Below, piece by piece: positions 35,644 to 48,366 of a stretch of DNA of 49,017 nt (position 1 is its first letter; each line of letters starts with the position of its first letter). The position numbers were made by a program, and so were the translations under genes. Origin of the DNA: a bacterium (GTDB lineage: Bacteria > Pseudomonadota > Gammaproteobacteria > Methylococcales > Methylomonadaceae); assembly GCA_030591965.1 (NCBI GenBank), contig JAUVAA010000003.1, positions 1 to 49,017 of the forward strand. The letters are read 5' to 3'. A model generated the notes under the pieces. The model made no database searches, had not been told where the DNA came from, and saw nothing but the letters and a program-made list of their open reading frames with translations.

Positions 35644-36216
35644 GTGCGCTGTGTTAATTCTCCTAGCAATATTGAAGAAGTGATAAAGAAGTCACGTTTT
35701 CTCGGTTTTATTTATCCTTGTTTTAGTGAAAGTGAGGCGCTTGCTTATTTGCATGATTTACGTAATGAGCATAGTGGAGCAAATCATATTGCCTTTGCCT
35801 ACCGTATAAGAACTGATCAAGGAGATGTGTGCCGGTTTCATGATGCAGGTGAGCCATCAGGTACTGCTGGGAAACCTATTTATCAATATATTGAAGGCCA
35901 TGATCTGATTAATGTCCTTATTGTGGTTGTGCGTTATTTTGGTGGAATTAAGTTGGGGGCAGGCGGGTTAACTCGTGCGTACGGTAATGCTGCTAAACAA
36001 GTGATCGGTGTAGCAGATATAACAGAGTTTATTGAATTAGCGAGTGTGCACTTCACCTTAGATTATAAAGATCTACAGCATTTTGAATATCAACTAGCTA
36101 AATGTTCCGGGGTCATTACTACTAAGGATTTCGCTGGACAGGTTAATTTAGAAGTGCAATTACCAGTAGTAAATACCGAATCATTATTAGCGCTGTTTCC
36201 AGGACAGATTTTGTAG
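35644..36216 (+). CDS. YigZ/IMPACT (UPF0029) family protein
   Basis: KKSRFLGFIYPC, DAGEPSGTAGKPI, VVRYFGGIKLGAGGL. Confidence 0.92.
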   Translation: MRCVNSPSNIEEVIKKSRFLGFIYPCFSESEALAYLHDLRNEHSGANHIAFAYRIRTDQGDVCRFHDAGEPSGTAGKPIYQYIEGHDLINVLIVVVRYFGGIKLGAGGLTRAYGNAAKQVIGVADITEFIELASVHFTLDYKDLQHFEYQLAKCSGVITTKDFAGQVNLEVQLPVVNTESLLALFPGQIL

Positions 36217-36268
36217 TTAGGAGCGCGCATGAAATAGCGTGGGAAATTATTTGGGGCGCAGGTCTTTA

Positions 36269-36576
36269 GAAGCTGTGAAAGTATTCAGTACTGAAGTCTC
36301 CCAATAAATGGAAAGCTAACTGTAGCAATACATAGGGTTGTACGATTATTCGTTGAGGTTGAGTGAAATGGGGCAAACCTATTAATAAATGGCCCTACCT
36401 GCCGATATACCCCCCTAAAAACTGGGAAACTTCAGTTCAGTATAATTCCCCTCCTTATCAAGGAGGGGCTAGGGGAGGTTTGATATTTAATTAACAATGA
36501 CCTATGTTTTTATAGATCCCCCTCAATCCCTCCTTCTCAAGGGGGAAGGCTAAAAGCACAATACTTTCACGGTCTC
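36269..36576. mobile_element. MITE-like repeat family A, copy 1, interrupted by a 145-bp insertion
   Basis: gaagctgtgaaagtatt ... aatactttcacggtctc ends; core cctccttatcaaggaggggctaggggaggtt shared with copy 2 at 41971-42141. Confidence 0.8.
36291..36435. mobile_element. 145-bp MITE-like insertion inside family A copy 1
   Basis: TIR ctgaagtctccca / tgggaaacttcag (12/13); 7-bp TSD ttcagta at 36284-36290 and 36436-36442; copy 2 has uninterrupted ttcaata. Confidence 0.85.
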
Positions 36577-36734
36577 TTTAGCCTGCATTTTATAGGGAGG
36601 ATAAAGTGCTGCGTCCCATTGTGTCGATCTTATTTTATGCTTAGGAACAAGATTTCAATAAAACCCGAAACTTTGTGAAGCCCGTATGAAGCTTGTGGAA
36701 TACGGGACGTTGAATGCACTGCGCTCCCTGTATT

Positions 36735-36917: not shown

Positions 36918-38315
36918 ATGAATGTCGGTAAACAATCATTAGCCATGTGTGCAGCTCTTTTGCTGGCAAGTAATGCAGTAAATGCGGCTGATAAACCACC
37001 CACTATGGAAGAGATGTGGAAGATTATTGAAGCCCAGCAAGTGCAGCTAGATGCTATGAAGAAAAGTTTAGAAGCTTCTCAAGCTTCTACTGTTGCAGTG
37101 GATTCCGAAGAAGGGCATGCGCAAAGCCTAACTAATGCCGAATTGAAAGAATTGGAGCATAAGACCGATGCTTTAACAGAAGTGGTAGAAACAATGCGCA
37201 CTGCTTTAGTTATTCCAGAAGAAAAAGAACTTAAGAGTTCATATGGATTAGGGCCAGCTGCCTCTAAGGTTTACCAAGTGGATCAAGGTTTATCAATTGG
37301 GGGGTATGGTGAAGTTAATTTCCAAACCTTTGTTGATGATAAAGGTCCAGATGATAAAAATAATGCCGATATGGAGCGTTTAGTGCTGTATGTGGGTTAT
37401 AAATTTACCGACTCTATCATTTTTAATAGTGAAATAGAGTTCGAGCATTCCTCAACAGCTAAAGGTGGGTCGGTATCTGTTGAACTAGCAACTTTAGATT
37501 TCTTATTAGATCCTATGCTTAATGTCCGTGCTGGTATGGTGTTATTGCCAATGGGTTTTATTAACCAAATACATGAACCGCCTTTCTTTTTTGGTAATAA
37601 TCGCCCAGAAGTTGAGCGAGCAATTATTCCAAGTACTTGGCGTGAAATAGGTGTGGGTCTATTCGGTGAAATTGTCCCTGATTTAAGTTATACGATGTAT
37701 GCTGTTAGTGGCTTGAAAGGTAGTAACTTTAGTTCTGATGGTATTCGTGGTGGTCGCCAAAAAGGCTCGAAAGCAATAAATGAAGATATGGCATTCGTGG
37801 GTCGCTTAGATTATGCGCCAGCAGCATTACCAGGCGTTACCTTTGGTACTTCAGCTTACTTAGGTAATTCTGGCCAAGATGAGTTTGATGTAGACGTATT
37901 TACTCAGCTGTATGAAGCACATGTAGAATGGAAATACCGTGGCTTAGAATTCCGTACTTTGGGTTCTTGGGGGCATGTGTCTAATGCAGGTGTTTTAAGT
38001 GCAGAAAAAGGTGAAACCATTGGTAGCTCAAATTACGGTGTTTATACTGAAATTGGCTATGATGTATTACCACTTATTCTTCCGGGTACAACCCAGTACC
38101 TAGCGCCATTCTTTCGTTATGAGAAGTTAGATACAATTGCAACGACAGCTGATGGTTATATGGATGATCTAAGCAAAGAACAAGATATATTCCAAGTAGG
38201 TTTTAACTATAAGCCGATTCCACAAGTTGTTATCAAGGCGGATTACCGTAACAGACAGACTAAAGCAGGCACAAAGCCGGATGAGTTTAATATAGGCTTT
38301 GGTTTTATCTTCTAA
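36918..38315 (+). CDS. Outer-membrane porin-like beta-barrel with N-terminal coiled coil
   Basis: Signal peptide, coiled coil, GGYGEVNFQTF, terminal aromatic FGFIF. Confidence 0.8.
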   Translation: MNVGKQSLAMCAALLLASNAVNAADKPPTMEEMWKIIEAQQVQLDAMKKSLEASQASTVAVDSEEGHAQSLTNAELKELEHKTDALTEVVETMRTALVIPEEKELKSSYGLGPAASKVYQVDQGLSIGGYGEVNFQTFVDDKGPDDKNNADMERLVLYVGYKFTDSIIFNSEIEFEHSSTAKGGSVSVELATLDFLLDPMLNVRAGMVLLPMGFINQIHEPPFFFGNNRPEVERAIIPSTWREIGVGLFGEIVPDLSYTMYAVSGLKGSNFSSDGIRGGRQKGSKAINEDMAFVGRLDYAPAALPGVTFGTSAYLGNSGQDEFDVDVFTQLYEAHVEWKYRGLEFRTLGSWGHVSNAGVLSAEKGETIGSSNYGVYTEIGYDVLPLILPGTTQYLAPFFRYEKLDTIATTADGYMDDLSKEQDIFQVGFNYKPIPQVVIKADYRNRQTKAGTKPDEFNIGFGFIF

Positions 38316-41876: not shown

Positions 41877-42224
41877 GTAGGGCGGACTTCAGTCCGCTTT
41901 TTTAGTGATGGCAGTTTCTATTTTAAGGCGGGATAAATAATAGGGACGAATTAGAAATAGCTAAAGCTTTGAGGCTGTGAAAGTATTCAATATAATCCCC
42001 CTCCTTATCAAGGAGGGGCTAGGGGAGGTTTTATATTTAATTAAAATATAAACAATATCAATAATCTATGTTTTTATAGACCCCCCCTCAATCCCCCCTT
42101 CTCAAGGGGGGAGGCTAAAAATACAATACTTTCACTGCCTCCTTTACACACCTAGCTAATATTTTTAAGTTTTCTTCTCCGCCTTAAGTTTGTAGCCACA
42201 ATGGCGGACTAAAGTCCGCCCTAC
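41877..42224. mobile_element. Composite palindromic element enclosing family A copy 2
   Basis: gtagggcggacttcagtccgc (41877-41897) / gcggactaaagtccgccctac (42204-42224); second inner inverted pair ttaaggcggga / tctccgccttaa. Confidence 0.72.
41971..42141. mobile_element. MITE-like repeat family A, copy 2
   Basis: gaggctgtgaaagtatt / aatactttcactgcctc TIR 16/17; core shared with copy 1. Confidence 0.82.
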
Positions 42225-47924: not shown

Positions 47925-48037
47925 AGGTAATATCCATTGATGAGTTGATTAAAACGGACATTTTTAAATTTTTTTTTTGCAGTCATTGCAAGCTTTTTTT
48001 TGAATTATTGCTTATTTTTTTCACTGCTGCCTGAGCC

Positions 48038-48178
48038 GGGTGTGATTAAAAGTGCGGGGAAACAAGTAAAATCAATAGCATACAAAAATCGAACTCATCA
48101 ATTTAGAAGTATAACTATTTGATTTTGTTAGATGGTAAAAATATGCTTTTGAAAATCCCCGCACTTTTAATCGCACCC
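48038..48178. mobile_element. 141-bp MITE nested inside the IS
   Basis: TIR gggtgtgattaaaagtgcgggga / tccccgcacttttaatcgcaccc (22/23); TSD gcctgagcc at 48029-48037 and 48179-48187. Confidence 0.92.
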
Positions 48179-48366
48179 GCCTGAGCCTCACGTTATTATT
48201 CTGATGGCTTAAAGTTCAAAAAAATGGAAATATTGGTGTGGTACATTACTCTGCTAAGTTGTCGGTGATTTTAGTTGGGCGGCTCTTCTTTCAATGGGAA
48301 CACTGATGATTGGTATGAGACTGTAAAATAGCAAAATAGTTATTTCTCTGATTATAAGAAGTATTA

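Follow-up and report, generated by a model that had tools for sequence, protein, structure and literature searches.

A 145-bp MITE with ISPepr1-type ends inserted in an apparent IS1182-type MITE of a methanotroph

Our analysis of the nested repeat at 36269-36576 indicates, with very little doubt, that its inner 145 bp are a non-autonomous MITE with ends of the IS4/ISPepr1 type, inserted, presumably by mobilisation in trans, into a MITE of family A, which is itself of apparent IS1182 type. Both elements are short and non-coding, each has inverted repeats and a duplication at its borders, and the ends of both are also those of autonomous elements. An earlier note on the window (the whole stretch of 49,017 nucleotides that was analysed) had proposed a MITE within a MITE, and the inverted ends, duplications and dispersed copies that we find for both elements bear this out. 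Moreover, the outer element has a duplication of its own, TTTA, which is absent from that note, and it lies in a small palindrome. With the palindrome, the IS1182-type MITE and the IS4-type MITE each standing as host to the next, the locus is therefore a three-layer nest (Table 1).

Table 1. Coordinates in the window of the nested locus, the genes on its two sides and the second family A copy
Feature	Position	Strand	Remark
YigZ-like gene	35644-36216		one side of nest; name from reading of translation
Palindromic target of outer element, left arm, GCAGGTC	36258-36264	.	pairs with GCCTGC across TTTA, one bulged T
Outer target-site duplication, left copy, TTTA	36265-36268	.	
Outer element: copy 1 of MITE family A, 308 bp with insert and one extra TTCAGTA; TIRs GAAGCTGTGAAAGTATT / AATACTTTCACGGTCTC	36269-36576	+	
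Inner target-site duplication, left copy, TTCAGTA	36284-36290	.	read directly
Inner element: 145-bp MITE, non-coding, TIR CTGAAGTYTCCCA	36291-36435	.	second own-genome copy and copies in 11 relatives
Inner TIR, left, CTGAAGTCTCCCA	36291-36303	.	1 mismatch to consensus CTGAAGTTTCCCA; read directly
Inner TIR, right, TGGGAAACTTCAG	36423-36435	.	read directly
Inner target-site duplication, right copy, TTCAGTA	36436-36442	.	read directly
Outer target-site duplication, right copy, TTTA	36577-36580	.	
Palindromic target of outer element, right arm, GCCTGC	36581-36586	.	pairs with GCAGGTC
Porin-like gene	36918-38315		other side of nest; name from reading of translation
Uninterrupted copy 2 of family A (171 bp), near-empty-site reference	41971-42141	+	duplication CTTT (41967-41970 / 42142-42145)

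The earlier note had described the insert as 145 bp long, with 13-bp TIRs matching at 12 of 13 positions and a 7-bp target-site duplication, and direct reading of 36284-36442 confirms each of these properties. The ends CTGAAGTCTCCCA and TGGGAAACTTCAG are complementary at 12/13 positions, and the TTCAGTA direct repeat around the insert can be extended on neither side. TIR pairs with at most 1 mismatch in 13, lying 60-400 bp apart and flanked by a 7-bp repeat, occur twice in the window and in none of 60 first-order Markov shuffles of it. Rfam has no family over the nested locus, and a phage search gave no match to the 145-bp insert.

A search of 151 genomes with the 145-bp element, as the note had suggested for the genome and its relatives, found matches in 12, namely the genome under study and, within the same family, 11 relatives; complete copies are mostly 144-147 bp long. 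The second copy in the genome under study (G000 C166:7636-7780) lies outside family A, is 87% identical and has the duplication TTAGTTAA. Intact copies in the relatives have differing A+T-rich duplications of 7-9 bp (for example CTCTTTTAA, ATTACTCAA, CTCAAGAA, TTTATAG, ATAATAAA and TAAGAAT), and several degenerate copies have no exact duplication. Among 44 elements that combine these ends with an exact duplication, a set made up of MITEs of about 145, 204, 340-355 and 480-500 bp together with full insertion sequences, the duplication has 7 bp in 9, 8 bp in 27 and 9 bp in 8; these duplications are 81% A+T, with AA at the end in 27 of the 44. The spread from 7 to 9 bp is a property of the inner-element family, and thus the 7 bp found here are compatible with the 8 bp at the second own copy. 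A reading of the inner element with TA-only, IS630-like duplications was rejected, since the 7-9-bp duplications recur across copies.

How widespread are these ends? A search with the end sequence gave about 700 matches in G001 and about 350 in G007, both of the same genus; with the pattern reversed as a control there were 0 to 2 on each strand. The 145-bp query had no match in either genome despite the hundreds of end matches there, and the G001 loci that we read have different interiors, mainly those of 204-bp and 480-500-bp MITEs with 7-9-bp duplications. G001 (L240-L269) and G007 carry a very heavy MITE load, and at one G001 locus (L180:962-1377) two 204-bp MITEs stand in tandem, each with the identical flanking 8-bp duplication TTTTTTAA.

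What could have moved an element of this kind? In the complete genome of a sister from the same genus, Methyloprofundus (G009), pairs of the ends are spaced 1545, 1546, 1632 and 1658 bp apart, and the full-length elements there have 7-9-bp duplications, for instance TTATTTTA, TTATATAA, TTTCAATA and CTTAATAAT. This insertion sequence, with a basic form of 1545-1567 bp and a chimeric form of 1658 bp, encodes in a single frame a DDE transposase of 445 aa, in which the Y(2)R(3)E(6)K motif, read Y-GA-R-WKI-E-SGFKEL-K, is complete and the spacing is D(107)D(134)E. Homologues of the transposase at about 70-76% identity are found in G001, G005, G007, G048 and G113, with identical ends wherever both are readable. 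A plasmid search returned only distant relatives of the transposase, below 60% identity, and a search by sequence found no relative of solved structure. By its ends and its duplications, the G009 insertion sequence is the likely parent of the 145-bp MITE. The sequence common to the MITE and the unmodified parent is limited to the terminal 13-20 bp or so, and since only the ends are shared, none of the unmodified full-length copies seen would yield the MITE by a simple internal deletion. In the genome under study, a draft of 223 contigs that is 91% complete, so that absence from it is unproven, no inner-type transposase was found, and the insert may for that reason be stranded there.

The parent can be compared with two published groups. 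Members of the ISPepr1 subgroup of IS4 have the terminal consensus YT-AA-YTT---A, A+T-rich direct repeats of 7-8 bp, a single-frame transposase with Y(2)R(3)E(6)K and D(60-110)D(100-150)E, and a length of 1500-1600 bp (De Palmenaer et al. 2008, PMC2266710). The parent fits this description in its ends (CTGAAGTTTCCCA, which match every stated position of the consensus), in the size of its basic form, in the full YREK, in the D(107)D(134)E spacing, in its A+T-rich targets and in its duplications, which are 7-9 bp here, 9 bp being slightly above the published 7-8. It departs from it in that the best NCBIfam model for its transposase is NF049999 (transpos_IS701_3), at 363 bits against a cut-off of 170; the 145-bp element, moreover, is without a transposase. 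However, the duplications of IS701 have 4 bp and its YREK tyrosine is usually missing (PMC2266710), whereas the parent, although above the NF049999 cut-off, makes duplications of 7-9 bp and has the complete YREK. On DNA features and motif spacing we would file the parent in the IS4 family, subgroup ISPepr1, and the 145-bp element as its MITE; the name given by NCBIfam (IS701) and the diagnostic features in the literature (IS4/ISPepr1) disagree here.

We regard it as very improbable that the insert is instead a defective element of IS1182 type or of some other family. Such an origin would agree with the non-coding interior of the insert, with the restriction of the common sequence to the termini when the unmodified full-length insertion sequence is compared, and with the IS701 label that NCBIfam gives to the parent transposase. 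But the insert has both its 13-bp ends and its 7-9-bp A+T-rich duplications in common with elements of 1.5-1.7 kb in the same genomes, while the ends of family A and IS1182 are unrelated in sequence and are accompanied by 3-4-bp duplications.

The assignment of the insert as an ISPepr1-type MITE leaves the question of how it relates to family A. Copy 1 without the insert and without one TTCAGTA reads GAAGCTGTGAAAGTATTCAGTATAATTCCCC, which is colinear with GAGGCTGTGAAAGTATTCAATATAATCCCCC of copy 2, and at the insertion point copy 2 runs on as GTATTCAATATAAT. The earlier note took copy 2 to preserve the empty site within the same window, which holds as far as copy 2 is uninterrupted, but copy 2 has TTCAATA and so makes an imperfect empty site. 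A 206-bp query around copy 2 collected 46 family A matches in the genome under study, a good many of which are incomplete or lie at the end of a contig. Besides copy 1, 17 copies are readable at the insertion site, copy 2 included, and all 17 are uninterrupted, with TTCAGTA in 15 and TTCAATA in 2, copy 2 among these; the site is normally uninterrupted, as the note had expected, and far from being routine in family A, the 145 bp are found in none of the other own-genome copies. That the 145 bp were an original internal module of family A, precisely deleted from the other copies, is excluded, its probability being practically nil: a precise deletion between two TTCAGTA repeats would give an identical empty sequence, but the site is empty in 17/17 other copies read, and the presence of the 145 bp outside family A with different duplications makes it an independent mobile element, which copy 2 has not lost as a module. 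The YigZ-like and porin-like genes are also adjacent in a relative from Methyloprofundus (L229), with neither element between them, but the intergenic region there is too diverged for alignment at the exact site, and no orthologous empty locus was found. The search that gave this relative also points to Methyloprofundus as the genus of the genome under study.

The outer element belongs to a family whose copies are mostly 168-173 bp long, with 17-bp ends GAGGCTGTGAAAGTATT and 3-4-bp duplications. Family A-type ends, GAGACTGTGAAAGTATT, bound IS1182-family transposase genes (NF033551) in G010 and G055, and the genome under study contains, at C66:6360-8055, a 1696-bp element that has GAGGCTGTGAAAG on either side and an uninterrupted frame of 541 codons that matches the G055 transposase. 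By these resemblances, family A is apparently a MITE of IS1182 type, and the 1696-bp element may be its live partner. At three G010 loci (L299, L300, L302) family A-type ends surround a transposase frame that is IS110-like by reading of its translation, and the sequence of a 150-bp MITE (L305) is present at both ends; these are apparently cases of an insertion sequence inserted in a MITE.

The targets of family A are palindromic. With the flanks joined and one duplication removed they read, for example, GTGGC-TAAA-GCCAC, GGTTCCCAAGC-TCCG-GCTTGGGAACC and CGTTCCCATGC-TCC-GCGTGGGAACG, and for the nested copy in the window GCAGGTC-TTTA-GCCTGC. On average, the folding energy of the 18 joined targets is -10.0 kcal/mol, compared with -5.7 when the flanks are re-paired, and the observed value was reached in 0 of 500 re-pairings. 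Insertion at the centres of small palindromes, with 3-4-bp duplications, is seen for these IS1182-type MITEs in the genome under study and in relatives. IS1272 is an IS1182-family element. It is reported to target inverted repeats and to replace them without duplication (PMC5678879). Family A has 13-17-bp ends in common with IS1182-family elements and enters inverted repeats as IS1272 does, but it duplicates 3-4 bp at palindrome centres where IS1272 replaces the inverted repeat.

Because the inner element is nested in the outer one, the outer came first and the inner second. Family A entered a small palindrome at its centre, in the interval from the YigZ-like to the porin-like gene, duplicating TTTA, and the 145-bp MITE later inserted in a TTCAGTA of this older MITE, with those 7 bp duplicated. 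The shared ends and the duplications suggest mobilisation in trans by an ISPepr1-type transposase. Its source was probably a full-length copy, and we infer that this copy has since been lost from the lineage or is missing from the draft assembly.

Can a MITE in turn alter its insertion sequence? In the 1658-bp form in G009 the first 119 bp are MITE sequence, with 5 mismatches to a G009 MITE copy, and replace the insertion sequence's own first 5-6 bases. The two parts meet at a shared 5-bp GTTTC, from which the insertion sequence continues at its 6th-7th base, and the rest of this form is 97.9% identical to the 1545-bp form. The chimera is the dominant, amplified form in G009, where 14 copies of it encode an identical transposase, against 3 other full-length copies that are slightly divergent. 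Chimeras stand at L143-L160 (for example L143:539-2196), and a 1292-bp deletion derivative at L149. Most simply, a MITE and a neighbouring insertion sequence would have been joined through microhomology, and the chimera would then have been amplified; the reverse order, with the MITE derived from the chimera, appears less likely, as the other MITE end matches the insertion sequence only at its terminal bases. We would put at roughly even chances the broader proposal that MITE and insertion sequence exchange ends, the non-autonomous element having given a new functional end with which the autonomous element spread.

Bacterial MITEs such as Correia, Chunjie and QMITE have been described, as has the entry of an insertion sequence into a MITE, IS1111 into QMITE2 (PMC10969869). 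Like these, the elements here are short, non-coding and mostly intergenic, with TIRs and a duplication, and the 145-bp element has in addition no transposase gene and several dispersed copies. In contrast to QMITE2 and IS1111, both partners here are MITEs, and likely parents can be named for both. Elsewhere in the window, 48030-48186 holds a further candidate MITE, which spans 48037-48179 (143 bp); its inverted ends, CGGGTGTGATTAAAAGTGCGGGG / CCCCGCACTTTTAATCGCACCCG, are about 20 bp long, and the 7-bp direct repeat is CCTGAGC. Neither MITE family of the nest turned up in the literature searched, which was less than a full survey. Nested mobile elements, bacterial MITEs included, are a known kind, and this locus is a clean but ordinary example with new members.

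What the locus provides is a record, at the level of single nucleotides, of two insertions that followed one another and were made by transposases from unrelated families. More generally, two families of repeats without a name, found in Methyloprofundus and in methanotrophs related to it, are linked to their likely source insertion sequences, and the chimeras of the sister genome apparently show how, in nature, an insertion sequence was reshaped by its own MITE.
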